Virus record (IMG/VR): IMGVR_UViG_3300025815_002696
Span: 1 to 53,277 of that record
Source: a virus
Strand: one strand, 5' to 3'
Length of the DNA: 53,277 bases
Shown: positions 1 to 42,958 of the stretch, piece by piece
How positions within the stretch are numbered: position 1 is the first letter of the stretch
How the letters are laid out: the number at the start of each line of letters is the position of its first letter
Notes under the pieces: model-generated
What the model was told of the DNA's origin: nothing
Database searches by the model: none
Seen by the model: the letters and a program-made list of their open reading frames with translations, nothing else
Program-made: the position numbers and the translations under genes

Positions 1-257
1 TTGCCTTCGCCTTTGGATTTGCCACCGCATGCTCCACGGATCTTACCCTTCGGACCCATCCGCACCCATTTGTCCTTGAACCATTTCTTGAGGTCCTCGT
101 TCAGTGTCTCCTCGAACACCAATTCGCCACAGTTGACGCATATGTCCAAAGATTCTCTCTTGACGCAGTTGGGCACACGTTTGCCGAACATGGTCTTCAT
201 GCCCTTCTTCTCGTAGCCTTTCCAACACTTCTCCGTGATTATCTCACTGGCTCTCAT
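1..257 (-). CDS. Small basic Cys-containing protein, C-terminus off the window
   Basis: Partial gene: about 85 residues are visible and the reading frame runs off the window edge. It starts MRASEIITEK, matching the N-terminal peptide shared by neighbouring genes. Next come a basic two-cysteine module (CWKGYEKKGMK...VPNC, residues about 11-31) and a CxxC pair (ICVNCGE). A basic Gly/Lys segment ends the visible part (KWVRMGPKGKIRGACGG). The ATG shares one base with the stop of the upstream gene (TAATG), so translation is probably coupled. No enzyme motif is seen. I infer a virion-internal or DNA-associated protein from the N-terminus and the context. Confidence 0.8.
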   Translation of the reverse strand, partial: MRASEIITEKCWKGYEKKGMKTMFGKRVPNCVKRESLDICVNCGELVFEETLNEDLKKWFKDKWVRMGPKGKIRGACGGKSKGEG

Positions 258-439
258 TATTTCTTGCTGTTGCCCCAGTTGGCCGCACCCTTTTTACGAC
301 ACTGCACTAGTGCACCACTGGCGTAGGCCGAAGGCCATACTTTGTATCTTGATTTTACTTTGTGATAACAGGCGTCCTTCTTCTCTGCCAATTTTTCAAA
401 TTCGGCTTCTGATATCCCTACGACCTCAGTGATACGCAT
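257..439 (-). CDS. 60-aa basic two-Cys protein
   Basis: The frame is open further upstream, but the start at 439 (MRITEVVGIS) is chosen because it sits one base after the upstream stop and matches the family N-terminal peptide. The rest is one compact module with two cysteines (ACYHKVKSRYKVWPSAYAS...VQCRK) ending in a Trp/Asn/Lys tail. The spacing Cys-x6-Trp-Pro-Ser-Ala-Tyr and the high Lys/Arg content suggest a small folded nucleic-acid or capsid-binding domain. Function is unknown. It is in the same transcript as the two flanking genes. Confidence 0.8.
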   Translation of the reverse strand: MRITEVVGISEAEFEKLAEKKDACYHKVKSRYKVWPSAYASGALVQCRKKGAANWGNSKK

Positions 440-440
440 G

Positions 441-1940
441 TTACCACTTCCTGCAAGACCAATATCTCGCTTTGGTCTTTGGTCCTGGATTTGCACAGTT
501 GTGACGTGCCCTGAATGATTTCCTTGCCTTAGGATTTGACTTTCTGATCTTCATTGTTTTCTGTCCGGCTTTCCTTGCTGAACTGCCACCGTGTCCGAAA
601 TTGACTTTCTTGACATTGCCTGTCTTAGGATCTTTCACGTACACTTTGAATTTCTTGACGTCACCACGCATTGGTTTGTTCAATGGAACTTTCCGCCCCT
701 GGTACTCTGCGTCAAACAGTTCCGTCTCGTCTTCTGGGAAACCCAATGGACCAAGCACTTCTTCGAAGTCTTCGTCCTCTTCTATGTTGAATTCGTCCTC
801 TTCAGGGAATGGTTCATAGGATTCGTTCTCAATATCGTGTGATGCCAACACCATGCTCATCGCATCTGCTAGTCCAACTTTGTCCATGTTCATTTGTTCT
901 ATGTCCGAAGTGTCGCCGTGATCATTGAACACCGCCATGTATTCTTTTACTTTCATAGGATCAAATCCTGCTTTGTTTAGGATATCATCACTCCTGTAAT
1001 CTAAGTCTTCCTGCACCGCTGATTCGTAGTCTGCTGGTTTGTCACCGCTCTCTAGGTCATCCGCCAGTTGGTCCAATGCTACTAGGCTTGGGTGTTCATT
1101 CATGTTGGGATGGTTGTCTAGGTGTTGTTTGATCTTTCTCAACATGTCAACTACCTTTTCATCTTCGCCTGCGTCTTCCTTGACCGCTGTTTCGTCCAGT
1201 GCAACAAGGGCCTCTTCCGCGTTGGTCAGTGACTGTATCGCTGACTTCTTGGCTTCCTCGTCCACTGACAGTGCTTCCACCCTGTCCTTGATCTGTGATA
1301 TGTCCAACATCACTTTAGTGAATTCGATCTTGTCGTCATCCGCCAGTTCGTTGACCGCTGGTTTTTTAACTGACCTTAGGTATTCCCTTGCTTTTGGTTT
1401 CAAGGCGTCAGCAGGTATGTGATCAAATCCCCTACGGACCCATCTCATGATCTCACTTGCCAACTCTTTTGCCAGTGTGTTTGGATCTTCATTGACTGTG
1501 CCTTCCATGCTTTCCGAGGTTTTTTGATGATCTTCCCAGAAGTCTCCAGCCATGTCAATCACACTGCTGTATGTGTCCATGAATTCTCCCATGTCCATTG
1601 ACTGTGCATCGTCGGCCATGGCTTTGTATTGTTGCTTGTCGTTGATGCCATAAAGTTTATCAAAACTTTTGATGTGAGGGTAATGACCTTCCTTGACCGG
1701 CACGTTGACGCCGTCTATCCTGTTCAATATGTTCCTGATCTCTATCATTGATTCCGCTATCGGTGAGTTGCCCATCTGCATCTGTGTCCTGTCGTTTGTG
1801 AATTGTGTTGTTTTAGCCAAACCCCTGCTACCTGCACTGGCCGGTGACTGTATCTGCTTGCCAGCGGACACGTGTCCTGTGTCTGTCATTGACACTTTGG
1901 CGTCTATGTATGATCCGTAGTTGTAGGGTATTGAGCTCAT
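441..1940 (-). CDS. 499-aa acidic protein with basic two-Cys C-terminal module (DUF5872-like)
   Basis: The N-terminus (MSSIPYNYGS) is Ser/Thr/Gln-rich. Residues about 60-340 are helical and strongly acidic, with a VKEDAGE linker (about 255) that recurs in the 394-aa protein at 3494-4678. The last 90 residues switch to very basic: KFKVYVKDPKTGNVKKV, then MKIRKSNPKARKSF, then two cysteines in HNCANPGPKTK and YWSCRKW. The C-terminal module resembles the small DUF5872-type domain of marine phages (from memory, not searched). An acidic helical body with a basic tail suits a prohead-core or internal protein. A late promoter box lies 6 nt before the ATG. Function is unproven. Confidence 0.85.
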   Translation of the reverse strand: MSSIPYNYGSYIDAKVSMTDTGHVSAGKQIQSPASAGSRGLAKTTQFTNDRTQMQMGNSPIAESMIEIRNILNRIDGVNVPVKEGHYPHIKSFDKLYGINDKQQYKAMADDAQSMDMGEFMDTYSSVIDMAGDFWEDHQKTSESMEGTVNEDPNTLAKELASEIMRWVRRGFDHIPADALKPKAREYLRSVKKPAVNELADDDKIEFTKVMLDISQIKDRVEALSVDEEAKKSAIQSLTNAEEALVALDETAVKEDAGEDEKVVDMLRKIKQHLDNHPNMNEHPSLVALDQLADDLESGDKPADYESAVQEDLDYRSDDILNKAGFDPMKVKEYMAVFNDHGDTSDIEQMNMDKVGLADAMSMVLASHDIENESYEPFPEEDEFNIEEDEDFEEVLGPLGFPEDETELFDAEYQGRKVPLNKPMRGDVKKFKVYVKDPKTGNVKKVNFGHGGSSARKAGQKTMKIRKSNPKARKSFRARHNCANPGPKTKARYWSCRKW

Positions 1941-1946
1941 TTGTAG

Positions 1947-1954
1947 TATTTATT
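1947..1954 (-). promoter_or_regulatory. T4-type late promoter box AATAAATA
   Basis: The box reads AATAAATA on the minus strand, 6 nt before the ATG at 1940. It overlaps the stop codon of the preceding gene. The T4 late consensus is TATAAATA with initiation about 5 nt downstream, which would leave a leader of about 1 nt. Confidence 0.65.
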
Positions 1955-2591
1955 TCCACAGCACCATCTTGAAACGTTCTTTTTCGATGCCAAAGAACTC
2001 GGTTTTCCACTCGCTCTGCTCAAAAAAGCCCAGTTTATGCCACTCATTTTTACGTTCCAGCATCATCCTTGCCTGTTCATCCCAGTCCTGGTTCACGAGG
2101 AACTCATCCATCCTCTCTTTCTTGTCGGCCACTTCATTGTGGTCGAAACCATCGTACTCCCAGTGTAGCAGTTCAAACACGTTGCCTTCCTTGTCACAGT
2201 AGTCTATCGAGAAGTCCAGTCCCCACTTGGGCCTCATGGCGATCAGTTTGTAGAAGTGTGGTCTGTATGCGGCCCATGTCTCCAACTGATTAAGTGCATC
2301 ACCCGAGTAACCTTTTCTCTCGAACATGTAGGCATGGTTGATGTGTGGTCCGTATTCTGTTTCATCCGCAGTAAACCAATCTTGACGGAGCGTTATGTGA
2401 GAACTGTTCCTGTGTCTTGTGGTAACAGCACCGTTGGCCACGGCATACAGTTGTTCTAGTCTGGTGAGATCATATCCGTTCTGGTCAAACATACTGACAA
2501 CTTCTTTTGGTGGACAAGCGAATATGCTCTTCACACGCTCAGTCCAGTATGGATTCGTGTTGAATCTGTTGTCGGTCAAGTGTAATCGCAT
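1950..2591 (-). CDS. 213-aa unrecognised protein
   Basis: Soluble protein rich in aromatic residues (Trp, Tyr, Phe) with no signal peptide or membrane segment. Conserved-looking islands are KWGLDFSIDYCD (about residues 125-136) and ELLHWEYDGFDHNE, followed by a long charged helix. I cannot assign a fold. It begins with its own late box exactly at leaderless distance (ATTAAATA, 5 nt, ATG). Its stop codon overlaps the promoter of the next gene, so it is probably a single-gene late unit. Confidence 0.8.
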   Translation of the reverse strand: MRLHLTDNRFNTNPYWTERVKSIFACPPKEVVSMFDQNGYDLTRLEQLYAVANGAVTTRHRNSSHITLRQDWFTADETEYGPHINHAYMFERKGYSGDALNQLETWAAYRPHFYKLIAMRPKWGLDFSIDYCDKEGNVFELLHWEYDGFDHNEVADKKERMDEFLVNQDWDEQARMMLERKNEWHKLGFFEQSEWKTEFFGIEKERFKMVLWK

Positions 2592-2596
2592 ACACT

Positions 2597-2604
2597 TATT
2601 TAAT
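2597..2604 (-). promoter_or_regulatory. Late promoter box ATTAAATA
   Basis: Minus-strand ATTAAATA with 5 nt (AGTGT) before the ATG at 2591. The predicted start is the A of the ATG. The box lies in a 21-nt intergenic gap. Confidence 0.6.
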
Positions 2605-2612
2605 TTTTTGGA

Positions 2613-3467
2613 TTATTTTTTTTCTGCTGGATCTAGGTCGTTTGTGAACTTGTCTTCCGCTGGCACATCAAGTTCCACTTCTTCACCTTCGTCGAAGTCT
2701 TTGTCCAGCATTGGAACTTCGCCGTCGTCTTCTTTGTCGTCTGCGTTGTCCTCTGCTTCTTCGTCGTCCGCTTTTGCTTCTGGTCTGTGTGGTTCTTCTT
2801 TGTTCCTGTCGTAGTCCACCATGTCTTTTGTTTTCTCATCAACCTGCTCTTCCTCTTCAGGTGCTTCGGTCTTTTCAGCGTCTGCTATGATCTCAGTAGT
2901 CTCTGGAGTCTTGATGAGAATACTTGATGATTCTTCATTGTAAACTGCCTCATTGTCTGATATCGTGTTGTAAAGTTCAACCAGGGCAGTGTCTTCCGCG
3001 CCTTTGATGTACTCTGCGATATCCTTTGTGATAACTTCTCTGAATGATTTTGAGTCATATGTCTGTTCTTCTTTTTGTTCCGTCTTCAGTTCTGCCAACT
3101 GTGCTTCTAATTCTGCTATCTTGTCTAGTCTGCTGACCTCTTCGTTGACTTCCTTCTTGATAGAAGTCGCAATGGAGTCATCTGCGTCTGATTCTTTGAT
3201 CGCTTTGGCGATGCTTGATTCTGTTTTTGGTTCAGCAACAATAGACTCAACCATTTTCTTTGCTTTTTTTGAATGTTTTACAGGTTCAACGTACTCTTTG
3301 ATACCTGCCAGTTTGGCTATGTCAGCCAATGAAACTTCTTTGTCGTCTAATACCTTGGGAGCCTTGCCTGCCGCTTCCATCAACTGTGCTCTTTCCTCTT
3401 CAGGAGTCACATTGTTCATGGCGTTTAAACGTGCTACTAGGTCTCTGAAACTTGTGTCTGTGCTCAT
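2613..3467 (-). CDS. 284-aa highly acidic coiled-coil protein, possible prohead core protein
   Basis: Starts MSTDTSFRDLVARL. The body is dominated by Glu, Asp, Lys and Ala, with predicted coiled coil around residues 85-125 (EVSRLDKIAELEAQLAELK). The C-terminal 100 residues are almost purely charged (EEEEQVDEK, DDEEAEDNADDKEDDG). There is no enzyme motif, cysteine cluster or membrane segment. Such composition is typical of scaffold/core proteins (T4 gp22 and gp67 are acidic core proteins), but no sequence match is claimed. It is preceded by a perfect TATAAATA box. Confidence 0.8.
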   Translation of the reverse strand: MSTDTSFRDLVARLNAMNNVTPEEERAQLMEAAGKAPKVLDDKEVSLADIAKLAGIKEYVEPVKHSKKAKKMVESIVAEPKTESSIAKAIKESDADDSIATSIKKEVNEEVSRLDKIAELEAQLAELKTEQKEEQTYDSKSFREVITKDIAEYIKGAEDTALVELYNTISDNEAVYNEESSSILIKTPETTEIIADAEKTEAPEEEEQVDEKTKDMVDYDRNKEEPHRPEAKADDEEAEDNADDKEDDGEVPMLDKDFDEGEEVELDVPAEDKFTNDLDPAEKK

Positions 3468-3473
3468 ATGAGT

Positions 3474-3481
3474 TATTTATA
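3474..3481 (-). promoter_or_regulatory. Late promoter box TATAAATA (exact T4 consensus)
   Basis: Exact TATAAATA on the minus strand, 6 nt before the ATG at 3467, giving a predicted leader of about 1 nt. A second, weaker box (CTTAAATA) lies at 3495-3502 inside the end of the preceding gene. Confidence 0.75.
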
Positions 3482-3493
3482 TTTGTTGTGTGT

Positions 3494-4678
3494 TTATTTA
3501 AGGCGTTGTTTTAGGTTAACTGCTAGTTTTGACTCGTATGCCAACCCTTCAGTCTTCATAAACTTGGCGTATTTGTTTTGTAGATCAGCCACGTGTGTTA
3601 GATCCTTACCGGAAGTCAGTCTGATTTTGGCGTCTGATAGGTCTTTTTCAATCATTTTTGCCAGTTCGTCATTGCCTGAATCCTGTGCCATGTCCAGTGC
3701 CGTGTTCATGGCCTTAACGGCTGGTATTGAATTGTCTATGGCGTTGTTGATCGAATTCACTCCAGCCAAACCTGCAACAATCACGCCCGCCATTGCCAGT
3801 CTCTTGCCCCATTCTTGGATGCCCTCGTCCAGTGCCGCTTCTCTCAACTTGTTGTAGTTCTTTGAAAGGTATGCTCTCGCCACCCTCTCGTCTGATGTTT
3901 TGAATGCTGACTTCTCGTGTTTGTCCAACACGTCATACACCATCTTGCCATCCTTGCCCTTGTACATTGAAACGTAAGGTTTGATGGTTGCCTCTTCGTT
4001 GGTCTCTTTCCTGTTCTCTTTGGCTATCTCTTTTTCTACTTCGTTCACTCTTTTCTTTAATATCCTCATCATGCCTGGTTTTGTGTCGACATCTTCTGCC
4101 CTGCATTTTCTTTCCAATATCTCGTCTAGGTGCTTCTGTATGATTCCTGCGTGTCTCTGTATCAATGAACCATCTAATTCTTCCCTGTATGGATTCAGTT
4201 TCTGGTAGTCCTCGTAGTGGTAAACTGCTTGTAGGTAGTCTGCCGCTAGATTCAATTTCGTCTGCACCCAACCTTCAAGGTCATCACCTTTACGGATCAT
4301 GTCCAACAGTTCTATTGCCATCTTTGCAGTTTGGTACAATTGGCTTTTGCTCATGTGTCCCTCGCCTGCGTCTTCCTTCACACCCTGCATGGTGCCTGTG
4401 CCTTTGGGCATCTTTTTCATTTCTGACATGCCGTCGTCATCGTAGGTGCCAGCCTTCGAACCTACTGTGTAACCGTGTACACTTTTCACGTAGTTTGATG
4501 CTAGGTCGATCTTCTTGGCCACCCATGCTTCCATCTCGGCCGCATCGTCTATCATGTTGTGTATCTTGATTGCGTGTGTGCCAATCTTCAACAATTGGTT
4601 CAGTGCCATGCCTGCTTCGTACGTGTCCGGCTTTGGCTCCGGCTTCTGCATCATGTGTGATAATTCGTTGAATTTCAT
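3494..4678 (-). CDS. 394-aa protein with a tandem-duplicated helical domain
   Basis: Starts MKFNELSHMM, a variant of the shared N-terminal peptide. Two related helical units follow: residues about 26-72 (MIDDAAEMEAWVAKKIDLAS, then YVKSVHGY) and about 112-157 (MIRKGDDLEGWVQTKLNLAA, then YLQAVYHY). Each pairs an acidic linker with W-V-x-x-K-hydrophobic and a DY/NY-hydrophobic end. A VKEDAGEG linker separates them and recurs in the 499-aa protein. Residues about 285-310 form a short hydrophobic Ala/Val/Gly stretch (LAMAGVIVAGLAGV). The gene follows the 237-aa gene by 1 nt. Probably structural or virion-internal. Confidence 0.8.
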   Translation of the reverse strand: MKFNELSHMMQKPEPKPDTYEAGMALNQLLKIGTHAIKIHNMIDDAAEMEAWVAKKIDLASNYVKSVHGYTVGSKAGTYDDDGMSEMKKMPKGTGTMQGVKEDAGEGHMSKSQLYQTAKMAIELLDMIRKGDDLEGWVQTKLNLAADYLQAVYHYEDYQKLNPYREELDGSLIQRHAGIIQKHLDEILERKCRAEDVDTKPGMMRILKKRVNEVEKEIAKENRKETNEEATIKPYVSMYKGKDGKMVYDVLDKHEKSAFKTSDERVARAYLSKNYNKLREAALDEGIQEWGKRLAMAGVIVAGLAGVNSINNAIDNSIPAVKAMNTALDMAQDSGNDELAKMIEKDLSDAKIRLTSGKDLTHVADLQNKYAKFMKTEGLAYESKLAVNLKQRLK

Positions 4679-4679
4679 T

Positions 4680-5393
4680 TTAGTTGAATCCCAAGTGTGT
4701 TACTTCTGGATATTTGGCTATGATTTTCCTTGCTATCTCGTTGTGTGCTTTGACCATCTGGTTCATGTAACCCTCTGGCTTGCCACCACCTATCATTGTG
4801 GCACCACCTGGATTCTGATCGATGGTTGTTGGTTCTTCAGGTGATCTCTTGCCGATGTTCTTCTGCAACCACTGTGTGGTCCTCGCTATGAATTCTTTTG
4901 CTGGCACAGGACTCTGGTCCTCGAAGTCTGGGTTGTATCCTAGTGCATCCAGGAACTGTCTCATACTGGCGTTGCTCATGTAAGGGCTCTCCACTTCCTC
5001 GTCGTCCTGATATGCCTTTGGGAACGTCCATAGGTTTTTCTCTGTTGGGTGTTTGTGGTAGGCGATCATCTCTGCGCCTTCCTGTATTTCGCCGTCTGTG
5101 AGATCCTGCCGTGGTTCCATGACAGAGAAGTAACCGTCCTGGTCACCGTACATCTTCTTGAATGTCTCTGGGTCATGGTTTGCTATGGTCTTCATGACGA
5201 ATTCTTTTGGTGCGGTGTCTGAATCATCTAACAGTTGAGCCAATGATTTCAGCATCTGTTTGTCCAACATCTTAGCGGCCGTTTTGTACACCTCATAATC
5301 ATATGATTGTTTGCCAATCTCGTCCGCGGCTCTGTTGATTTGCCTCACTGCTAGTGTGGAACCTTCTACTTTTTCGAATTCGTAAAATCTCAT
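4680..5393 (-). CDS. 237-aa protein with capsid-targeting-like N-terminus
   Basis: Starts MRFYEFEKVEGS, close to the shared M-[KR]-x-x-E-F peptide. The rest is soluble and helical, with DDSDTAPKEFVMKTIANHDPE near residue 75, a Tyr/Asp-rich middle and a Pro-rich segment ahead of a final helix. No catalytic motif was recognised. It is the first gene of a unit with the 394-aa gene (1-nt gap), driven by a CATAAATA box 8 nt upstream. Confidence 0.8.
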   Translation of the reverse strand: MRFYEFEKVEGSTLAVRQINRAADEIGKQSYDYEVYKTAAKMLDKQMLKSLAQLLDDSDTAPKEFVMKTIANHDPETFKKMYGDQDGYFSVMEPRQDLTDGEIQEGAEMIAYHKHPTEKNLWTFPKAYQDDEEVESPYMSNASMRQFLDALGYNPDFEDQSPVPAKEFIARTTQWLQKNIGKRSPEEPTTIDQNPGGATMIGGGKPEGYMNQMVKAHNEIARKIIAKYPEVTHLGFN

Positions 5394-5401
5394 GTTGTCA
5401 A

Positions 5402-5409
5402 TATTTATG
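5402..5409 (-). promoter_or_regulatory. Late promoter box CATAAATA
   Basis: CATAAATA on the minus strand, 8 nt before the ATG at 5393. It overlaps the stop codon of the 55-aa cysteine-rich gene. Confidence 0.6.
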
Positions 5410-5572
5410 CGGCACAGGCCTCACATCTACACTGCTTACAGACCTCTATTGGGTACTCCATGTAGCCTTCTGTGGGGTATCCTGTCTCTGTCCTGTTGCA
5501 CGTCTTGCCACAATGGCTACTGCAACCGCAGTTCTTACACGTTACTTCTTCTGTAAGCACCAAAGGTTCCAT
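5405..5572 (-). CDS. 55-aa cysteine-rich, metallothionein-like protein
   Basis: Short gene starting ATG at 5572 (MEPLVLTEEVTCKNCGC) and ending TAA at 5405. It holds nine cysteines in two clusters: CKNCGCSSHCGKTC near the N-terminus and CKQCRCEAC at the C-terminus, joined by a Thr/Tyr/Gly linker. CxC and CxxC spacing with few aromatic residues is what small metal-thiolate proteins look like, though a zinc-ribbon pair is also possible. The start overlaps the upstream stop by one base (TAATG), the same coupling used by certain neighbours. It is in the same transcript as the 87-aa gene and two genes away from the Cu/Zn SOD region. Confidence 0.7.
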   Translation of the reverse strand: MEPLVLTEEVTCKNCGCSSHCGKTCNRTETGYPTEGYMEYPIEVCKQCRCEACAA

Positions 5573-5835
5573 TATCTCTTGACCAATGGTCCACCCATTA
5601 GGTTCACGCCCGGTAGTCTGTGTGCACCTTTGGCAGTGCCGTCTGGATTTTTGGGTTGTACTATTTTTGGTAATCTAGGTGCCTTGGTGCCTGATCTGCC
5701 CGGAGATCCTGTGAATGATTTTGAGAACCTGTCCTTGCCTATGGCGACATGAGGACTTGTCACACTCGCTATGTTACCCGAACTTGTGGCCCCCGCTGTT
5801 GCGTATTCACGCACTATGACTTCATTTATCTTCAT
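5572..5835 (-). CDS. 87-aa protein with capsid-targeting-like N-terminus
   Basis: Starts MKINEVIVREYATAG, a clear member of the shared N-terminal family. The remainder is Gly/Ser/Pro/Lys-rich and low-complexity (TSSGNIASV, SPGRSGTKAPRLPK), basic and probably unfolded, with no cysteine. A late box lies 6 nt upstream, inside the end of the 294-aa gene, whose coding region it overlaps by 14 nt. Inferred to be a small packaged protein; function unknown. Confidence 0.75.
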   Translation of the reverse strand: MKINEVIVREYATAGATSSGNIASVTSPHVAIGKDRFSKSFTGSPGRSGTKAPRLPKIVQPKNPDGTAKGAHRLPGVNLMGGPLVKR

Positions 5836-6706
5836 TAAATTTATTTATTAGATCATTCAGCAAGATCAAATTAACAGTGTCCAGATCTGTCATATAAAGA
5901 CCATATGGCCTTTCTTTGTTTGAAAACATCCTGATGCCGTGTTTTTTTATCACATCCATCTCAAGTGAAAAATTACCTCCCAATGGGGTATCTGTTACAA
6001 CTCCGTGATTGGCGCCGGGATCATACGAGTCGCCATGTAATTTTATTTTATTCGCAGAAGGCCATAGGTTATGTTCATTTAAGTAGGTGGCCATCCATGG
6101 TAAGGGTGTTGTGACTTCATTTTTGCTGAAGCGTTGTGCAATTTTCAGAAATGTTCCTGCTTCCAAAAATATTTTTGGCATTAAAAAAATATTTTTTATC
6201 TGGATGTTGGCGAACTCTGTCATGAAGCCATTGGTATAATTGTTGTTGTTTAGAGAACACTCCATGGTGATGTTGTTTCCGATGTTGTCCTCATCGATCT
6301 CATACAAGAACATTTTCTTGGGTGTTTCAAATGGTCTTACCCGATTCATTGGTCTAAGATTTCCTCCAACATTTTCACCATCTAGTTCCTTTGTCATGAG
6401 GTCTGCTTCTTGTATCCAATTTTGATACCATGATTTTTCCGATTGTTCTGCTTGGCTTTCAGCGGATAAGAATTTTTGTTTATAGTCGTTCAATATTTTC
6501 TTCATCATGGCGGTGTACAACGGATATTTTTTATCATTGCACATGTGTTTGGTATAAAAATACGAGCTGATTGTTTTGGTGATCATGTCGATATCTTCGT
6601 CTAGGCTTATCTCATCTATGAAATGATCGTTTGAACGTATCCTGATCGACGATTTTTTATCTTTGTATGATTTGTAGAGGATCGAAATCCCAAGAATGTA
6701 CTTCAT
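5822..6706 (-). CDS. 294-aa unrecognised protein
   Basis: Soluble Lys/Asn-rich protein beginning MKYILGISILYKSYK. It has helical N-terminal parts and a possible beta-rich C-terminal half (LHGDSYDPGANHGVVTD, PLGGNFSLEMDVIKK). The AT-richer codons (many AAA, AAT, TTT) differ visibly from the GC-richer neighbours and could mark a more recent acquisition. No promoter box of the standard form was found immediately upstream. No family recognised. Confidence 0.75.
   Translation of the reverse strand: MKYILGISILYKSYKDKKSSIRIRSNDHFIDEISLDEDIDMITKTISSYFYTKHMCNDKKYPLYTAMMKKILNDYKQKFLSAESQAEQSEKSWYQNWIQEADLMTKELDGENVGGNLRPMNRVRPFETPKKMFLYEIDEDNIGNNITMECSLNNNNYTNGFMTEFANIQIKNIFLMPKIFLEAGTFLKIAQRFSKNEVTTPLPWMATYLNEHNLWPSANKIKLHGDSYDPGANHGVVTDTPLGGNFSLEMDVIKKHGIRMFSNKERPYGLYMTDLDTVNLILLNDLINKFNEDK
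5842..5849 (-). promoter_or_regulatory. Late promoter box AATAAATA
   Basis: AATAAATA on the minus strand, 6 nt before the ATG at 5835. It lies inside the 3' end of the 294-aa gene. Confidence 0.6.
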
Positions 6707-6716
6707 ATAGAAGTAA

Positions 6717-7250
6717 TTATTTTGATTTTTTACGTCCGGACTTCATGTTGGCACACCAGTGGTACATCTTTGCTCGTTCACCTGAGGCTTTCTTCGCTTT
6801 GCTCCTGAGACTTGTGACGGAACCCTTGCAACTGGCACCAGCACGTTTCACACGTCCTGGCCTGCTCTTGCCCTTCTTCTTGCCGTCCGCGAAGTTCTCG
6901 TTGAACTCCTTCCAATCCAACTTCAATTTCTTGACGTTCATGTACTGGCCACCTACAGGCACATCCTTTGTGGCGTTCTGCTTGGTCACTATGCCAACAC
7001 CCGCGGCCTCTTTCTGAGGTTTTCCGTGTTTGTTGTGTTGAGCCCAGGCCAGTGCGTATGCACCTGACTTGCCGAATTTTTTCTTCAGTGCTTTGACCTG
7101 TTTCTCCCTGCCCGGTGGTGCCTTCTCATTGGCTCGATTGTTGCCCTTGTTCTTGAAGTCAAACCTGTTGTTTGGACCCACACCTGGTCTGTGTATCAGA
7201 CCCATCGTGTCAGCAGTGTGTGGCATTATTATGAATTCTCTTATCTTCAT
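6717..7250 (-). CDS. 177-aa basic protein with capsid-targeting-like N-terminus
   Basis: The frame is open further upstream, but the ATG at 7250 (MKIREFIIMP) is chosen. It overlaps the upstream stop as ATGA and begins with the shared peptide. The protein is strongly basic: a middle motif FGKSGAYALAWAQHNKHGK (about residues 66-84), a DWKEFNENFADGKKKG segment, and a C-terminal two-cysteine module (ASCKGSV...MYHWCANMKSG) ending in Lys. Likely a DNA-contacting or capsid-internal protein; no enzyme motif. Confidence 0.8.
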   Translation of the reverse strand: MKIREFIIMPHTADTMGLIHRPGVGPNNRFDFKNKGNNRANEKAPPGREKQVKALKKKFGKSGAYALAWAQHNKHGKPQKEAAGVGIVTKQNATKDVPVGGQYMNVKKLKLDWKEFNENFADGKKKGKSRPGRVKRAGASCKGSVTSLRSKAKKASGERAKMYHWCANMKSGRKKSK

Positions 7251-7477
7251 TTCTTCTTCCTGCCCGCACAGTGCGCCTTCTGTGAGAAACCCTTTGGATT
7301 GTTGCAGTTTATACTCTTCTTGTATTTGCTTGACCAACCTTCCACCCTGTATGGGTATGCCATCATGGAATGGTATCCCATCCTTGACCTGCCCTTGGCC
7401 TGTTTCTCATATTTCTTTAGAAATTTGTCAACATCTGGGTGTACGTATTTTGTCGCCAGTATCTCTTTAATTCTCAT
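7247..7477 (-). CDS. 76-aa basic two-Cys protein with capsid-targeting-like N-terminus
   Basis: Starts MRIKEILATKYVHPD. A helical centre (VDKFLKKYEKQAKGRSR) is followed by a C-terminal module with two cysteines (INCNNPKGFSQKAHCAG) and a poly-Lys end. It overlaps the following gene by 4 nt (ATGA) and the upstream reductase gene by 11 nt. The C-terminal module is one of several related basic two-Cys modules in this block. Function unknown. Confidence 0.8.
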   Translation of the reverse strand: MRIKEILATKYVHPDVDKFLKKYEKQAKGRSRMGYHSMMAYPYRVEGWSSKYKKSINCNNPKGFSQKAHCAGRKKK

Positions 7478-8069
7478 TGATGTCTACAGAACCGTGCCTA
7501 GCATCTTTTGTGGGATTGCCATCTTTGAGGATCCTTGCCCATGTTGTCATGTTTATCGTGCAGTTCTTGACCTGCTCTACTGTGTCATCGTCTTGTGTGA
7601 TCTCGTCTATGCCCTGTGCTTTTGATTCTATGTTGCACTGTGGCGGTATGGTGAAACCAAAGTTTGCGGCCGCCGAATACAAGACTCCGTGTATGTGTTG
7701 GAATCCATCTCCACCTCCTGAGACTAGAGTACCAAACACCTTGTTGTAGAAAGGTTGATGCTTGTTGTCCTTCGCCCAACTGTATATCACGTCTAATCTT
7801 TCAAGCATTGCCTGTATGTGGCAACTGTGATTGCCCCACCAAATAGGTGTTGCGAATATGACACCGTCCACGTCAAACATTTTCATTATGTGAGGTTTCA
7901 GTTCATCGTTGACGTCTGCTGTTGATCCTTCGTAATCTAAATCTCGCATTGTTACTACTTCACACTCATGGCCCATTTTCTCAAATGCCAACTGTGCCAT
8001 CTTACACACCTTGAATGTGTTTGATTCTGCATCTGGTTTTAGACTGCCATTGAATATCAAGAACTTCAT
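7467..8069 (-). CDS. Flavodoxin-like / NAD(P)H-dependent FMN reductase family protein
   Basis: Begins MKFLIFNGSLKPDAESNT, the beta-strand plus phosphate-binding loop of flavodoxin-fold reductases (GS...SNT). Around residues 71-90 it has FATPIWWGNHSCHIQAMLER, the conserved P-x-Y/W-W/G flavin loop plus helix. Residues about 111-120 (LVSGGGDGFQ) form a second flavin-contacting glycine loop. The length of 200 aa fits WrbA/FMN-reductase relatives. It overlaps the SOD gene by 4 nt, suggesting a redox pair. Unlike its neighbours it lacks the capsid-targeting-like N-terminus. Electron acceptor unknown. Confidence 0.8.
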   Translation of the reverse strand: MKFLIFNGSLKPDAESNTFKVCKMAQLAFEKMGHECEVVTMRDLDYEGSTADVNDELKPHIMKMFDVDGVIFATPIWWGNHSCHIQAMLERLDVIYSWAKDNKHQPFYNKVFGTLVSGGGDGFQHIHGVLYSAAANFGFTIPPQCNIESKAQGIDEITQDDDTVEQVKNCTINMTTWARILKDGNPTKDARHGSVDINEN

Positions 8070-8620
8070 TCCGCCGCCCTCAATGTTATCACACCACAGG
8101 CCAATCTGTCACCTGCGTTGCCTGTCTTAAGACTCTCTGCGTCTCCGCCTTTGCCTAGGTCGTCCTTGTCTGAGTGTATCACGAAACCTCTGCCTATCAC
8201 TGACCTGTCACCTAGTAGGTCCACTCTCTTCGCTTCGATTGTGAACTTGGCAGTGCCTGAATCGTCTGCTGTGATGTTACCAAGATCTCCAACGTGTCCT
8301 TCGTTGATGTCGCCGTGATAAACCCCGTCTGGGTTGTAGTGTCCGCCCATTGATTTACATCCATCTGACATGTCTCCAAACTCGTGTATGTGGAATCCGT
8401 GTTCGCCTGGTTCTAGTCCTGTGATGGTACCTTTTACTAGTGTTGGCGTTCCTGGCGCCTGTATGAGCAGGATTGACCCCTTAACGGTGTCAGAATGCTC
8501 TAATATGCACTGTGCCACAGTTGTTTCCTGTGCTTCGGTAATTGCGTTTACCTTGCCGCAACTACACTCTTTGGCCTTGGTCCTAGGACAACTTGTTTCT
8601 GTGAATTCTTGTGCTCGCAT
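8066..8620 (-). CDS. sodC: Cu/Zn superoxide dismutase with a possible capsid-targeting leader
   Basis: Dismutates superoxide. All active-site residues are visible: copper ligands His77 and His79 (GFHIHEFGD), bridging His94 (GGHYNP), His149 (VIHSDKDD); zinc ligands His102, His109 and Asp112; disulfide Cys88-Cys175; and the guiding Arg172 (DRLACGV). There is no secretion signal, which is odd for a bacterial-type SodC. Instead residues 1-29 form a leader starting MRAQEFTETS, with a CxC and then NAITE-A. ITE followed by Ala fits the T4 gp21 prohead protease rule (hydrophobic-x-Glu, then Ala/Gly/Ser). I infer packaging in the capsid; unproven. Late box 8 nt upstream. Confidence 0.93.
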   Translation of the reverse strand: MRAQEFTETSCPRTKAKECSCGKVNAITEAQETTVAQCILEHSDTVKGSILLIQAPGTPTLVKGTITGLEPGEHGFHIHEFGDMSDGCKSMGGHYNPDGVYHGDINEGHVGDLGNITADDSGTAKFTIEAKRVDLLGDRSVIGRGFVIHSDKDDLGKGGDAESLKTGNAGDRLACGVITLRAAE

Positions 8621-8628
8621 TATGCGAG

Positions 8629-8636
8629 TATTTATT
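8629..8636 (-). promoter_or_regulatory. Late promoter box AATAAATA
   Basis: AATAAATA on the minus strand, 8 nt before the sodC ATG at 8620. It overlaps the stop of the 69-aa gene. Confidence 0.65.
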
Positions 8637-8841
8637 TGTTTTTGGGCATTGGGTTTTCACCAGTGAGTCTAGGCTGTGCGAACCACAGTTTGAACCATTC
8701 GTCCGTACCCGGCTTGATGTTGTGTTTTCTCTGATATTGTGCTTTTTGTGTGCCAACGTAGGATAGGTTCTCGCCCATTGAATCTTCTTTGGGTAGTTTA
8801 TCCACACCTGCCAACTGCTTTATTCTCTCCAACTCGTCCAT
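8632..8841 (-). CDS. 69-aa small protein
   Basis: Starts MDELERIKQLAGVDKLP, an amphipathic helix. A basic stretch (QYQRKHNIKPGTDEWFKLWF) and a short Pro/Lys tail follow. No cysteine, membrane segment or enzyme motif. It follows the 62-aa gene by 1 nt. Function unknown. Confidence 0.65.
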   Translation of the reverse strand: MDELERIKQLAGVDKLPKEDSMGENLSYVGTQKAQYQRKHNIKPGTDEWFKLWFAQPRLTGENPMPKNK

Positions 8842-8842
8842 G

Positions 8843-9031
8843 TTAGATGGTCCAGTCTTTCAATTGTTGTTTGGTAGGCTTATGTGCTTTGACCTTCTCA
8901 ACCTTTCCACCCTTGGCTAGGAACTTCTTCATCTTCTCGTCAAGTTCTCTCTGTAACTCTTGTGGTGTCTTGGGTATGTCGCCTGCGGCGTATGGTCTAT
9001 TGATCCCGCTGAATTTTGGCATAGTCTTCAA
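8843..9031 (-). CDS. 62-aa basic helical protein
   Basis: Starts MKTMPKFSGINRPYA. A charged helix (ELQRELDEKMKKFLAKGG) and a basic tail ending in Trp-Thr-Ile follow. It overlaps the 3' end of the nucleotidyltransferase-HAD gene by 35 nt in another frame and is followed 1 nt later by the 69-aa gene. Function unknown; the long overlap slightly lowers confidence. Confidence 0.6.
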   Translation of the reverse strand: MKTMPKFSGINRPYAAGDIPKTPQELQRELDEKMKKFLAKGGKVEKVKAHKPTKQQLKDWTI

Positions 9032-10178
9032 GTCCTTTCTGTACTTTGGTTAATGAATCTCTGTTTGCTTGATATAGTATTCCGTATCCACCTGCGGCCT
9101 GCCATTTCTGTATGTTGATTGGCCTGTCGTCAATCAGAATGTTTGGTGTGCCTGTTCCTTTGTTCTTAGCATAGGTTTCTTTCCTGCCTGTGACAACTAT
9201 TTCGTCTGGTTGTTCAATGTTGTTCTGTATCCATATTTTTTTATACTTTGCTGAATTCTCATGGTCACCTCTCAATGGTGACGTGTTTATGCTAAAGTTT
9301 CCACCTGTGAATTTCTTCACCATTTCTATCAGTGCGTCTGCTGTTGGGAATTTTGGTAGCACTGCGAAGAAGTCCGTGCCAGTGATCCTATCTATTACCT
9401 CTTTCTTGAGGTCCTTGGTCTTGTCATTGGTCAGTTGTTTCCAGTGTTCAACGCCATAGAGGAATTCAACACCGCCAAAGAAGTCTGCTAAGACCCCGTC
9501 CATGTCAAGATATACAATTGGCTTTGTGTCTGTCATATCTTCATTATACAACTTCTTGTTGTTCTCGTCAACCTTTTTACCAAACTGGTCCTGTATCTTG
9601 TCGTACAGCACTTTACCTTTGTCTCCGCCCATGATGATCTTGCTGAATTCGTGTTCCTGTCCCTTCATCGCGAGTTCTCTGGCCTTGGACGCACTGACTC
9701 CTGTGACATCATCCGCGTCTGGATCTCGTTGACCAGCACTGACTACATCTACACTATCAAATGTGTATTCAATATTTCCAGCCTTGGTTGGTTTACCATT
9801 GTACTGATTCAATAGGTTCTTGAATTGCATGACCCTGTCATCGCCTGCGACCATTATCACTTTGGTCCTACCTTCCTGCTCCAGCACCTTCATGACCTTG
9901 ATTATGGTGTTTGCCCTGATGTCACCAAAACTCAATTTTGGATCTGACTGGAAGTGTTGCCTCAGGTAACCTAATTTTGTTGTGAAGTCTATTGGGTCCT
10001 TTGCGGTACCGTCCGTGTGTGAAAGGAATATGTAGGCCTTGCCATTTACCTTGTCAGCGACCTGCTGTACTTTGTTTATTAATTTCTCGTGTCCGATTGT
10101 GGGTGGATTGAATCGGCCAAAGGCAAATACTGCTGTTGAACGATCGTCCTCCTTAAGAAACAGTTCCCTGAGGTACAT
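8997..10178 (-). CDS. Nucleotidyltransferase (NMNAT/cytidylyltransferase-like) fused to a HAD 5'-nucleotidase-like domain
   Basis: Residues 1-12 (MYLRELFLKE) resemble the local capsid-targeting-like leader. Residues about 15-205 are a nucleotidyltransferase: FGRFNPPTIGH is the HIGH-type nucleotide-binding motif (TIGH), and GVSASKAREL resembles the ISSTxxR motif. Residues about 214-393 form a HAD domain: YLDMDGVLADF carries both catalytic Asp residues, TSPLRGD resembles motif II, and LIDDRPINI resembles motif IV, as in deoxyribonucleotidases. NAD+ or nucleotide salvage is the natural inference; the substrate cannot be read. It overlaps the upstream 118-aa gene by 26 nt. Confidence 0.85.
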   Translation of the reverse strand: MYLRELFLKEDDRSTAVFAFGRFNPPTIGHEKLINKVQQVADKVNGKAYIFLSHTDGTAKDPIDFTTKLGYLRQHFQSDPKLSFGDIRANTIIKVMKVLEQEGRTKVIMVAGDDRVMQFKNLLNQYNGKPTKAGNIEYTFDSVDVVSAGQRDPDADDVTGVSASKARELAMKGQEHEFSKIIMGGDKGKVLYDKIQDQFGKKVDENNKKLYNEDMTDTKPIVYLDMDGVLADFFGGVEFLYGVEHWKQLTNDKTKDLKKEVIDRITGTDFFAVLPKFPTADALIEMVKKFTGGNFSINTSPLRGDHENSAKYKKIWIQNNIEQPDEIVVTGRKETYAKNKGTGTPNILIDDRPINIQKWQAAGGYGILYQANRDSLTKVQKGLEDYAKIQRDQ

Positions 10179-10509
10179 CGTATTCGCCTTGTTTTATATT
10201 TTCTAGTTCTCTGTCTGATATGACTCTCGCAACCTGTTGTCTGGTCTCCTTTGGAAACATGTTGCTGACATCGTCTTGTGTTGATCCGAACTCTTTGACA
10301 TATTCCTTTGCGGCATCATCCACTAGATACATCCAGAGTTTCTGTGCTTTCTCATGGTCATACATATTCTTCTTCAGTTTCCTACGTATGTTGCTTATGA
10401 TGGGCATGAAACGTCTACGATACAAGTCCTCATTGTTCATGATGTAGGTATCCAGCTCGTTTACTGCGTCAGAGTCTATGTTTTCTGAAATGAATTGTGA
10501 TGCTCTCAT
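10153..10509 (-). CDS. 118-aa protein with capsid-targeting-like N-terminus
   Basis: Starts MRASQFISENIDSD, another member of the N-terminal family, with ISE as a possible prohead-protease site. The rest is one helical charged domain (YRRRFMPIISNIRRKLKKN, DDAAKEYVKEFG). A late box lies 7 nt upstream. It overlaps the nucleotidyltransferase-HAD gene, so the two are co-transcribed. Function unknown. Confidence 0.8.
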   Translation of the reverse strand: MRASQFISENIDSDAVNELDTYIMNNEDLYRRRFMPIISNIRRKLKKNMYDHEKAQKLWMYLVDDAAKEYVKEFGSTQDDVSNMFPKETRQQVARVISDRELENIKQGEYDVPQGTVS

Positions 10510-11181: not shown

Positions 11182-11513
11182 TTGTACATCCTTTCAAATT
11201 TTTCTGTGATCTCTGCTCTAGGTCCGCCCTGTGCCTCGAACTCATCTATGAACCTGTCTAGCAAGTTTGCCGCCAATCTCCTGTACTCCGGCAGTGCGTC
11301 CTCCATTAACGTCTTTATTGATGCCTGGGGTTCGGTCTCCACTATCGTTCCTATGGGCATGTGATCTATCCAACTGCCCGCCCGACACATTTCATTCTGA
11401 ATCTTGTGCAGTTCTGGCGTGGGCATGAACGTAGACATCATCCTACGAGACTCGTCAACGAGTATGCACATCAGAGTGCCAAAGTAATTCTCTTTGTATA
11501 TGTCTTTCTGCAT
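11169..11513 (-). CDS. 114-aa unrecognised protein
   Basis: Soluble helical protein starting MQKDIYKENYFG. Central helices (PELHKIQNEMCRAGSW) are followed by a charged C-terminal helix (NLLDRFIDEFEAQGG). It shares one base with the stop of the large subtilase gene (TAATG) and so is translated from the same transcript. Confidence 0.7.
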   Translation of the reverse strand: MQKDIYKENYFGTLMCILVDESRRMMSTFMPTPELHKIQNEMCRAGSWIDHMPIGTIVETEPQASIKTLMEDALPEYRRLAANLLDRFIDEFEAQGGPRAEITEKFERMYKWKQ

Positions 11514-14500
11514 TATTTCTTGATTGGTACGAACATGTCTTTTTCAAGATCGTATACCAGTCCGTGTTTGGTTGCGTTGTCAACTTCCTTGCCCTGTGCG
11601 GCGTACAATGCCTTCATGTCTTTCTTAGTCCCATCCTCGTTGTAGCACTTGGGGTTCTTCCAGAAAAGGAATCCACATGCACCATTGAATTTCTTCACAT
11701 AGTTGAATGCAAGATTCACTCCATCCTTGCCGTCCTGTCCTGACACGTCCTGTCTGTACTCTGCACTGAAGTTGAACGTGGCATCTAGATCGTCTTCTGC
11801 TGTCTTGCTGTAGAAGAAGCCAAGGTTCTTCTCTTTTGTGCTCTGTGTGAGATCACTGTTGAAGTTCGTGTAGTTTATCGTGCCGTCTAGATTGACGCTT
11901 TCGGCTACTTCCAAGTCCATCGAACCCGATGTTACGTGACTTGGAAGTGAGAACGACCAACCGAAAGTTGTGTGCTTATCTTTGTGTATTTCATAAGCCA
12001 ACCTGTAAGATTCTGTTTTCACATCTGAGAAGCCTTTGATGATACTTCCGTCTGTTGTGTTGATGTCTGTTTTACCTTTTGTGTAGTCCAAGCTCAACAC
12101 GTTGTTGCCCAGTGCGTACTCGACACCTATGTTTCCAAAGTTTGTGTTGTTGTTATCACCCACTGCCAACGCACCATCTGAGGAGTTACCCAACCATGTC
12201 TCCTGTTCACTCATCTGTCCAATGCTTGTTTTCAGTTTGAAGTTTTTGTGTAGCATGAAGTTCTTACCCACGTTCACCGAGTAGTCACCATTGCCATTTT
12301 CACCGGTGTAAAATCCAAAGTTGTAGTTCTTGTCTAGGTCGTACTGTCCTCCCTGTGTGAACGTTCCATACATCTGCTGTGTTGGTAGGAATGTGTTGTT
12401 GTTTGCCATCAGCATGTCAATATCTGAATACTTCCTGTTGTCTTTGACTGTGAAGCCGCTACCTAGACTCATGTAGTAATCCCTGTCATAATCATCGATT
12501 ACCATTATCTTCAAGTTTGATAAACTTGCGAATGCACTCGTTGATCCTGTAGCGAAGTATGTGTTGTTGAGTGAAGTCAATGTGCCGTCGACTCTGCCAG
12601 TAGTCGGTATGCCTGTTGCACCTTGCGGTTTTGTGGCTTCGTCTAGATCTAGCATACCTTGTCCGTGTATGTTGACGTCATAATTATTGATTTCTTTGTC
12701 AGCAGTGTTCAAAACAAGTTTCACTAGATTCTCACCTTGCATGTGTGGCCACATCTGATGCAGTATGCCCATAGCACCTGTGACCTGAGGAGCCGCCATA
12801 CTTGATCCACCCATTGTTAGGTATCCGTCTCCAGCCGCACTCGAATAAACTGAATTACCTGGTGCTAGTATGTAGAAATCTGATGTTTTGTAGGTGTCAT
12901 TACAAGCATTGTTCACTATATTCAAACACACGTGACCTGCTTTACTGCCTACTACCTGTCCATCCGCCTTGGTGCCGCCCCAGTTACCAACAATAATCAT
13001 CTTGCCACCTAACACTAGATCGCCGTTGTTGTCCACCTCGGTCGCCCATATGCCTGGATCCAATGCGTAGTCATAATTCATTTCACCGTCTATGTATAGA
13101 CCATTACCGGCCGAGTTCACCAAAACTATGTCATTGTCTGTGCCAACTTTCCAGTATTGAGCACCACCACCGCTGTTCATCCTGTCAGTGATCTTTGGTG
13201 CAGAGTATGTGCCATCGCTCAGTTGCGTGACTGTGCCGTAATGAAAGTTTGGGTTCGCTCTGTTGAAACTCATGTTCACCGCGACAATGTTCATGTTCTC
13301 ACCACCTTGTTCAGTGGTGCTTTTCAATTTTGCGATGTCTTGCAGGGCCTGTGAGGCATAAGTCATGTGTGCATTACCATTACCGTAATAGTCAATGTTG
13401 GCACCAACAAGTTCAGCGTCAAAGGCCACTCCGTGGAATCCTGTGCCATCTCGTTTACCTGCAACAATACCTGCAACGTGTGTGCCGTGTGATTTATATT
13501 GTCCTTTGCTTTCAACTGTGTCATCTTTCCAAACATAGTCATTGTACCACTTGTATTTGCCGTCCAGTGCTTCGTGGTCGGTCTGTTGATATGAATCAAT
13601 AACACCCAATACCGCACCCTTACCTGTCCAACCTTTTGCATAGGCTTCGTCGGCATTTATGATCGACTTACTGGTATCCTTGTTGAATTCTGCTGTATGG
13701 AAGTCACTTGCGGTTGTGCTTAGGCCTGTTGTCTGCGTACCTAGGTCCTGGTCGTCATCTGTGTATGCACTGCTCTTCAGTGTCTTGCTGGCCTGTGCTA
13801 CGAAAACATCTTCGACGTCAGGCGTTAAGAATATGTTGGCCGTGACCACATTCTCCTTGACCGTTCTTTCAACTTCTTCGGTCTGTATGGTTTGCCAGTC
13901 TGTGTAAACTTTTGCCTGTGGTGTCTCTATGATCTCTGATGTGCCATCTTTGTATGTGACTTTCTTCCTTTTTGTTGTTATGGTCCATGTTCTTTTCTGT
14001 TTTGTTTTTGTATCTTTGTAGACCACGTTGTCCGAAGTAGTCCGCACTGCGGGTTTAGTCACCGTTGTTTTTCTCCAGTTGTCTACGATTACCCATATCT
14101 GGTTTTTTGTGCTTGTTGCTTCTGTTCTTGTTTTTGTGTAATCAACAGTCGCAGTTGATTCTGCTCCTGCCGAAACTTCTGGTTCATTTGCTGTGGTGCT
14201 TACGGTTGTTGTGACGGTGAGTATGCCATCAGTGCCATAAGCGGAATTCCATTCTGTTGTTGCATCACTCACAACGTCTGCAAGTGTCTCGGTGGTCACA
14301 ATGGGATTTGATCCTTCTTGGTACTGTACCACGTCTTCCACTTTGGGTGTAAGTTCTGTTCTTGTTTCTACTATGCTACAACTTGGTGTAGTCGAAGTAA
14401 CTGTACTGCCATCGGACGCTAATTTTGTTGTTTCGGTCCAAGTACAAGTTTTTGTTCTTACTACCTTTGTTTGTGGTGTAGTGACCTTAATAGTTCTTTT

Positions 14501-41885: not shown

Positions 41886-42623
41886 CTGTTTCCACCGGAT
41901 GTCGTCACGTGATCCAGTGATCCATCTCTGTAAATCTGCGTAGATGCCACACTTGATGTTGGGTTGGTCGAAGTACCAACGCAGGAACGGATTGCCTTCC
42001 AGGTATTCCTTACGGTTGATGAAATAGAAATTAGTTCCGGGGAATTTACGGAAAATCTGACGCAGTTGATACATCCATTCATATTTGAGATATGCTTTCA
42101 TGCTTTCACGTCCTGGATAGTTTTTGGAATCCTTGTATATGTTGTTCTGTATCCTGCTGGGCGTGTCCATCTCCCACTGCTGGGCACCCATTATGTCAAA
42201 GGCCATAATAATGATGTTCTTGATCCCTGATTCCGCCGCCATCAGTACAGCACTGCAACCAGAGCCTCTGGCCGTGGAGAAGTCTTTGGTCTTGATCTTT
42301 CCGCCCTTCTTGATGTTACCACCACGCCAGACCCTGTATATCTTCAGTCCATCAGGCACGTCTGTTTCCCTGTCACCGTCACAGATGTAGTTCCACTTGC
42401 TGATGTCATCTATGCCGTGTATGTGCGGAGACTCTTTGCCGTCGTTGTGCCATTGTGATAGTTCTTCAAACATTTCAGGACTGACACCCACTATGTGATC
42501 ACAAAGTTTGGGATGATCCCTGTATATGGCATTACAACCATACACCGTTCCTTTGTCTTTTAAATTTTCTATTGGGAAGATATTTCTTGATTCACCGTTG
42601 CCTATTATGAAAGCGGTATCCAT
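41880..42623 (-). CDS. GT42-like glycosyltransferase-type protein, paralogue A
   Basis: 247 aa; start chosen at 42623 (MDTAFIIGNGESRN), which overlaps the upstream stop as TAATG. Motifs IIGNGESR (nucleotide-sugar loop), GTVYGCNAIYRDHP, a central TARGSGCSAVLMAAESG and IIIMAFDIMG follow the layout of CstII-type (GT42) sialyltransferases, but sequence identity is low and by eye only. The paralogue is at 46608-47246. It may modify phage or host glycans or DNA bases; not proven. Confidence 0.65.
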   Translation of the reverse strand: MDTAFIIGNGESRNIFPIENLKDKGTVYGCNAIYRDHPKLCDHIVGVSPEMFEELSQWHNDGKESPHIHGIDDISKWNYICDGDRETDVPDGLKIYRVWRGGNIKKGGKIKTKDFSTARGSGCSAVLMAAESGIKNIIIMAFDIMGAQQWEMDTPSRIQNNIYKDSKNYPGRESMKAYLKYEWMYQLRQIFRKFPGTNFYFINRKEYLEGNPFLRWYFDQPNIKCGIYADLQRWITGSRDDIRWKQL

Positions 42624-42958
42624 TATATGCCAAACGACTCTCCACAACCACAGGCGCTGGTACTGTTGGGATTTGATATCTCGAACTGTGAGCCAAAGGT
42701 CTCCTCGACCCAGTCGATCTTCGTACCCATGACATAAAGCAATGAAGTCTCATCAACTACGAACCTGCCAGTGCCCCAATCTTCCATGTGATCGCCCTGT
42801 GCCACACTTTCCTTGGTGTCTGCGAATCCCCAGTCGTACTTGAATCCCGCACAACCTCCGCCCAACACTGCCAGGCTGACTGCGTACTTGCCAGTATTTT
42901 TTTCCAGCAGTCGTTCTATCTGTGCTTTTGCGGCGTCTGTTATTTCAAATGGTTTCAT
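42623..42958 (-). CDS. A-type Fe-S carrier protein (IscA/ErpA-like)
   Basis: 111 aa; start at 42958 (MKPFEITDAAKAQIE). Shows the A-type fold: GGGCAGFKYDW with the first Cys (about 47), GTKIDWVEETFGSQFEI, NPNSTSACGCGESF with the other two Cys. It would bind or transfer a 2Fe-2S/4Fe-4S cluster. The window also encodes a radical SAM enzyme that needs a 4Fe-4S cluster, a natural client. Terminal gene pair overlap TAATG. Confidence 0.9.
   Translation of the reverse strand: MKPFEITDAAKAQIERLLEKNTGKYAVSLAVLGGGCAGFKYDWGFADTKESVAQGDHMEDWGTGRFVVDETSLLYVMGTKIDWVEETFGSQFEISNPNSTSACGCGESFGI

Follow-up and report, generated by a model that had tools for sequence, protein, structure and literature searches.

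The short N-terminal peptide with which ten genes of one block begin is, at a probability of roughly 85%, a capsid-targeting leader of the T4 type, belonging to a jumbo T4-like phage that would use it to load a diverse protein cargo into its head. The window, by which we mean the whole stretch of DNA analysed, is a 53,277-bp IMG/VR virus fragment with 76 called genes. The leader M[KR]xxE[FIL][IL]xE would, in the late stage of infection, steer each cargo protein into the prohead scaffold core, the S77 prohead protease would remove it after [hydrophobic]-x-Glu, as with the capsid-protein propeptide, and the mature cargo would remain in the head and be delivered together with the DNA. This predicted cargo comprises a Cu/Zn superoxide dismutase (SOD), a nucleotidyltransferase-nucleotidase and small basic Cys proteins, and it appears to be modular, the same bodies standing singly behind a leader or being strung into longer proteins. 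The model builds on the leader, a junction motif, module shuffling, the phage lineage, the protease gene of relatives and virion enrichment in the relative PA5oct, and from these we infer targeting, cleavage and injection; it draws on a fragment, its relatives and two virion proteomes, one supportive and one neutral.

The ten N-termini that the original prediction had described as sharing M-[KR]-x-x-E-[FILV] or a close variant all start real open reading frames, and all lie on the minus strand within positions 1-10,509 (257 MRASEIITE, 439 MRITEVV, 4678 MKFNELS, 5393 MRFYEFE, 5835 MKINEVI, 7250 MKIREFI, 7477 MRIKEIL, 8620 MRAQEFT, 10178 MYLRELF and 10509 MRASQFI). Two of these starts, 439 and 7250, are downstream ATGs inside longer GTG/TTG frames, and their orthologs in relatives begin at the same Met. 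The genes of the block and their candidate sites are as follows, an arrow marking each predicted cut or module joint.

10153..10509, minus strand: predicted cargo gene, 118-aa helical protein (AF2 mean pLDDT 86)
10483..10509, minus strand: its leader MRASQFISE, predicted cut after E9
8997..10178, minus strand: predicted cargo enzyme, two-domain, CTP_transf_like and NT5C (HAD) (Pfam PF01467 2e-4, PF06941 7e-6)
10149..10178, minus strand: its leader MYLRELFLKE, like T4 Alt MELITELFDED and portal-adjacent MILRELFYFD
8066..8620, minus strand: predicted cargo enzyme, Cu/Zn superoxide dismutase (PF00080 1.6e-44)
8597..8620, minus strand: SOD leader MRAQEFTE, first candidate cut
8534..8536, minus strand: SOD Glu29 in NAITE↓AQ, second candidate cut; compare T4 IPI STITE↓A
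7467..8069, minus strand: FMN reductase without leader, ending ..SVDINE↓N (PF03358 6e-17)
7247..7477, minus strand: predicted cargo gene, leader MRIKEIL and basic Cys module, ..RVE↓GWSSKYKKSINCNNPKGFSQKAHC; the module directly follows leader MRAREILPE↓ in the related contig G011
7340..7342, minus strand: Glu46, module joint RVE↓GWSSKYKK, from module comparison
6717..7250, minus strand: predicted cargo gene, four modules strung behind leader MKIRE↓F, from module shuffling
7125..7127, minus strand: Glu42, joint NNRANE↓KAPPG; several different modules downstream in relatives
7008..7010, minus strand: Glu81, joint KPQKE↓AAGVG, from boundary comparison with relatives
6897..6899, minus strand: Glu118, joint EFNE↓NFADG; G011 has MRAKEFITE↓NFADG
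5572..5835, minus strand: predicted cargo gene, basic protein of 87 aa whose junction resembles that of the capsid protein
5806..5835, minus strand: its leader MKINEVIVRE, followed by YATAGATSSGNIAS, which matches the junction of the capsid protein
4680..5393, minus strand: predicted cargo gene, leader MRFYEF, second module after GEIQE↓GAEM; module behind leaders in relatives
5079..5081, minus strand: Glu, joint GEIQE↓GAEM, from module comparison
3494..4678, minus strand: predicted cargo gene, leader MKFNEL, helical, multi-module, joint GVKE↓DAGEGHMSK
441..1940, minus strand: leaderless multi-module protein of 499 aa, whose C-terminal module bears leader MKINEIVNKISNE in the related contig G001
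257..439, minus strand: predicted cargo gene, small basic protein with two Cys behind leader MRITEVVGISE; internal after ..ITE↓ in G003/L024
3..257, minus strand: predicted cargo gene, CWKGY module behind leader MRASEIITE↓; cut off by the left end of the window

The product of 8997..10178 also matches a PHROG cytidyltransferase (1e-48), and Foldseek returned no PDB match at E<=0.001 for the 118-aa protein. In the window, as in many relatives, the block adjoins a gene for a 1228-aa protein (11513-15199, minus strand) that begins with a sequence resembling a lipobox (LALTACGGGGG) and contains subtilisin-like motifs (SHGTHVAG, GGSSMAAP); a surface protease encoded by a phage would be unusual.

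Leaders were scored with the regular expression M[KRQHY]xx[EDQ][FILVM], which was set before the genomes with virion data were examined. It matches 11 of the 76 called window genes, ten of them in the block, so that the leader is found in 10 of the 18 genes of 1-10,509 (the other eight have no leader peptide) vs 1 of the 58 elsewhere (Fisher p=4.5e-7). The sole called match outside the block, an IscA-like iron-sulphur protein at 42623-42958 (minus strand, start MKPFEIT), is probably due to chance. Residue-shuffled N-termini gave 0.96 +/- 0.96 matches vs the 11 observed, internal Met residues matched in 0.5% of cases, and the clustering of leader genes in the window has P=0.0004. All ten peptides being gene starts in one block, the common N-terminus could be a feature of translation or mRNA, that is, a sequence bias of start regions carrying no protein signal. 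We give this explanation almost no credence, since the observed matches exceed the residue-shuffle null, both Glu and Phe are encoded by mixed codons where they are conserved, and the Glu joint recurs within proteins, far from any start.

Searching relatives for the peptide, as had been proposed, recovered the same kind of block in three related contigs, G001, G002 and G003; in G001, nine of the ten leader matches fall at 157-168 kb. Leader-gene clustering is significant in four contigs and not significant in G011-G015, and the consensus over nine contigs is M[KR]xxE[FIL][IL]xE↓. A short N-terminal peptide, as expected of a T4-type leader (about 10-20 aa), is conserved over unrelated proteins in the ten window genes and in three more contigs; the attached bodies, earlier called unrelated, are mostly so, except that shuffled modules are common to some of them. 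Equal frequency among replication genes had been named as an argument against packaging, and no strict match falls on a recognised replication gene in the lineage contigs. Leader proteins are also more basic than other proteins (net charge per 100 residues +1.4 vs -1.5). The late promoter [AT]TAAATA was dropped as evidence because its enrichment is weak (19 of 71 leader genes vs 138 of 1223 others) and only 1 of 13 capsid-protein genes has it. Leader matches of the FDIIFISYDEPN family in G011, G012 and G014 were judged to be chance. Two leaderless block genes, 8632-8841 and 2613-3467 (both minus strand), have a second short motif near their N-termini, roughly [LI]x[RK]LxxLAG[IV] (ERIKQLAGV, ADIAKLAGI); PA5oct gp203 has INDILRLAGV.

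In T4, the internal proteins and Alt enter the core by means of leaders of 10-20 residues, which gp21 cleaves off (PMC5694885); this capsid-targeting sequence is attributed to Mullaney and Black 1996 (via PMC5694885, PMC3012670). T-even internal proteins are diverse, the leader alone being kept, and those of T4 touch DNA through lysine (PMC3012670). Head-targeted internal proteins have been described mainly in T-even phages, and the known ones are injected for counter-defence (PMC3012670, PMC9391042); examples are IPI, an inhibitor of a restriction system, and IPIII, without which one E. coli strain cannot be infected (PMC9391042). The claimed likeness to T4 leaders was borne out in the T4 record, where IPIII (MKTYQEFIAE↓ASVV), IPI (MKTFKEFTSTTTPVSTITE↓ATLTS) and Alt (MELITELFDED) resemble the window counterparts MRASQFISE↓N, the SOD start MRAQEFTET...NAITE↓A (MRAQEFTETSCPRTKAKECSCGKVNAITE↓AQE) and MYLRELFLKEDD. 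Both sets combine a short N-terminus, a charged start, a core Glu, hydrophobic residues and an end at [hydrophobic]-x-Glu, with diverse bodies behind the conserved leader and, in the lineage, an S77 protease and T4-type head genes. The leader is similar rather than identical to that of T4, because the spacing from Met to core Glu is typically one residue shorter, the lineage consensus being one residue shorter than IPIII MKTYQEFIAE↓. Unlike T4, this different phage lineage has more carriers per block, SOD-like enzyme bodies and multi-module strung cargo. From the T4-tag resemblance of the ten starts it follows that the phage probably carries ready-made enzymes and multi-part cargo into the next infection.

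The window comes from a large marine T4-like phage of the RaK2/PA5oct supergroup. The orthologous leader block and a gp23-type capsid gene lie on one contig, G001 (196,581 bp), and the lineage is jumbo T4-like because the G001 capsid protein is 66-73% identical to its homologues in Phosso, Vibrio phage 2.275.O, PA5oct, CBB, GAP32 and PBECO4. Capsid protein and prohead protease are absent from the 53,277-bp window, a fragment, and both are taken from relatives; the S77 prohead protease (PF03420) is present on all eight capsid-bearing contigs searched (G001 and seven others). HTVC008M was rejected as a close relative: the capsid-protein search gave RaK2, PA5oct and Phosso instead, and HTVC008M has no strict leader. 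No cultured relatives of genes 5572-5835, 10153-10509 and 4680-5393 were found by tblastn in 50,697 phage records.

The final Glu of the leader fits a prohead-protease site, as judged from sequence. Over nine contigs, [FILVM]xE with its Glu at residues 8-14 occurs in 41 of 71 leader genes vs 176 of 1221 others (OR 8, p=6e-16), where part of the E8 signal is forced because the regular expression fixes residue 6; at E9, where the hydrophobic residue is unforced, it occurs in 30% of leader genes vs 2% of others. Many leaders thus defined end at [hydrophobic]-x-Glu; the site is absent from others, including 4 of the 10 window leaders at E8-14. Among 17 orthologs of gene 10153-10509, E9 is invariant, its codons being nine GAA and eight GAG, and residue 8 varies among S, T, I, K, L, N and A; this constancy with mixed codons is protein-level selection. 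Residues 1-10 lie outside the confident helical fold in the AF2 model of this protein. Near the N-terminus by itself, [FILVM]xE is not enriched among PA5oct virion proteins (15/93 vs 37/208), so it is informative only behind a leader.

Two links tie the leader to the head. A junction resembling YL[SAIT]E↓(Q/S)ATAGATSAGN is common to the capsid proteins of the lineage, and in gene 5572-5835 and its relatives the leader runs into this capsid-junction sequence (MKIKEILE↓SATAGATSAG in G011, ..VQEQATAGATSAG in others). Directly after the portal gene, a gene of about 80 aa, which a fixed-pattern scan did not find and gene calling revealed, starts MILRELFYFD, MKLMEFFTYG or similar in most contigs read; in PA5oct this position is taken by gp150, which starts MKINDIITE and which the record lists as ESI-MS/MS-detected. 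A matrix trained on the portal-adjacent N-termini ranks the block genes higher in the window (AUC 0.81, p=6e-5) and in G001 (AUC 0.80, p=3e-5), and gives no separation of MS from non-MS proteins in PA5oct overall (AUC 0.52). Capsid-junction-like sequence was also seen on other proteins, CBB_293 (L147:13937-14095, plus strand; MKKKKVNE↓NASSGATSAGGIAS) and PA5oct gp203 (L164:27321-28817, plus strand; ..VEE↓TASAGASSAGG).

The leader on the portal-adjacent protein would also suit a reading in which the peptide serves assembly proteins in general for binding to the core or the portal; its carriers would then be scaffold factors, lost from the head or degraded there, and no delivered cargo. T4 gp67, gp68 and gp22 are core proteins cut by the protease (PMC5694885). 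We consider this reading unlikely, given that a complete Cu/Zn SOD and a nucleotide enzyme of two domains are among the bodies, that bodies are freely swapped among relatives, and that the leader proteins of PA5oct persist in purified virions.

In the PA5oct record, 93 CDS are marked as ESI-MS/MS-detected, and the regular expression matches 8 of these 93 vs 7 of about 352 others, a total derived from feature numbering (p=0.005); the enrichment is moderate. None of the non-MS matches is a recognised replication gene, and one, 262106, adjoins two virion-detected matches. CBB (virion proteome: Table 4 of PMC5259590) showed no clear enrichment, with 11 matches among 483 called genes, one of them MS-detected and one structural by homology; CBB_299 (MRFSQITE), overlooked by the gene caller, is also MS-detected. 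Both phages belong to the same capsid-protein lineage; leaders are sparse and dispersed in them, with no more than three together in PA5oct, and no large cargo block was found.

Presence in the virion alone does not imply a location inside the head, and the PA5oct MS list, which includes non-structural enzymes, gives presence without location. Together with the joining of G011 and G012 leaders to LysM+GH19 lysins, which are sometimes tail-associated in other phages, this would suit a leader that targets the tail, the baseplate or the capsid surface. Such a destination is very improbable in view of the capsid-protein-like junction, the portal-adjacent leader gene and the T4 leaders of the same form that work in the head (PMC5694885). 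The leader-end site, the capsid junction, the portal neighbour and the PA5oct enrichment all argue for the original prediction of a diverse capsid cargo that includes enzymes.

Relatives place the same body behind different upstream parts, either alone behind a leader or joined into longer proteins. Several distinct domains occur in one polypeptide in gene 6717-7250 (GLIHRPG..GNNRANE, KAPPGREK.., AAGVGIV.. and NFADGK..YHWCANMKSG) and in fusions in relatives. The NFADGK.. module stands behind a leader in G011 (MRAKEFITE↓) and G012 (MRASEFITE↓); in other places it comes after EFNE↓, EFRE↓, NKANE↓, DMVE↓, HHLNE↓, LAKE↓, EFKE↓, AVDE↓, EMKE↓ or GLE↓. Several different modules come after GNN[RK][AG]NE↓, one of them SOD (L016), which is joined to other cargo modules in L016 and L008. 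The GAxM module, for which structure comparison gave no PDB match, follows EFIRE↓, EFIQE↓, NIKE↓, GLGE↓, SVKE↓ and SVSE↓, and GEIQE↓ in the window; the GAEM type of 4680..5393 stands behind leaders as MRAQEFIRE↓GAEM in L003/L004 and MKAQEFIQE↓GASM in G002. Likewise, the CWKGY module appears as MKANEILTE↓..CWKG in G012 and MKIYEITE↓GTRCWKGY in G001, and the FMN reductase sequence continues at the Glu of ..DINE into cargo modules in L010, L011 and G001. Leader carriers in relatives include a zeta-toxin-like kinase (G002) and LysM+GH19 proteins (G011, G012). At L048:10300-10908 (plus strand), a zeta-toxin-like P-loop kinase stands behind leader MRINEILE, and at L169:8254-9582 and L186:13179-14195 (both plus strand) leader, NFADG module, LysM and GH19 chitinase/lysin are combined in one protein.

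With module starts defined by leaders, the joints comprise 28 distinct internal contexts, of which 21 have Glu at P1 (background 7.2%, p=7e-19) and 15 have FILVM at P3, other positions being lower. An all-against-all boundary scan without leader-defined starts pointed in the same direction (shared Glu near 85 of 232 joints vs 32-81 in control windows), but was noisy and contained many alignments in the wrong frame. Most simply read, strung cargo would be cut at its Glu joints by the prohead protease, which is expected to yield units because the joints keep Glu, often with a hydrophobic P3. We therefore regard as reasonably probable a head-cargo polyprotein system in which interchangeable modules, SOD among them, are arranged in varying order behind one leader, the joints being the phage's own prohead-protease sites and release occurring only inside the head. 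If the joints are such sites, one targeting event would load several proteins.

Polyvalent proteins of phages and conjugative elements (PMC5512222) are likewise multi-domain, and packaging, delivery and division into functional units have been proposed for them; their release is attributed to an embedded peptidase domain, whereas the joints here resemble sites of a separate prohead protease, and Pfam found no embedded peptidase domain in the subset of carriers scanned. In SPN3US/phiKZ, head proteins are likewise cut after x-x-Glu by a T4-related prohead protease and two paralogs have a common conserved N-terminus, but the propeptides are mostly over 100 residues, compared with about 8-14 for the leaders predicted here (PMC5694885). 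For prior work on prohead-protease-cut polyproteins in phage heads, a search that left subscription literature mostly outside found only PMC5512222, which is not proof of novelty.

The protease-like leader end, the match to the capsid-protein junction and the polyprotein-like arrangement of the cargo go beyond the original prediction. PA5oct is a cultured relative with a virion proteome, which makes the idea testable now, and the rule M[KR]xxE[FIL][IL]xE↓ lets packaged proteins be predicted from genomes. The cargo may serve in oxidative damage control, nucleotide/NAD metabolism, DNA binding and counter-defence. These findings extend the head leader from T-even phages to uncultured jumbo T4-like phages, and suggest that such phages deliver SOD, nucleotide enzymes and the like alongside their DNA and that the cargo can be produced as cleavable chains.
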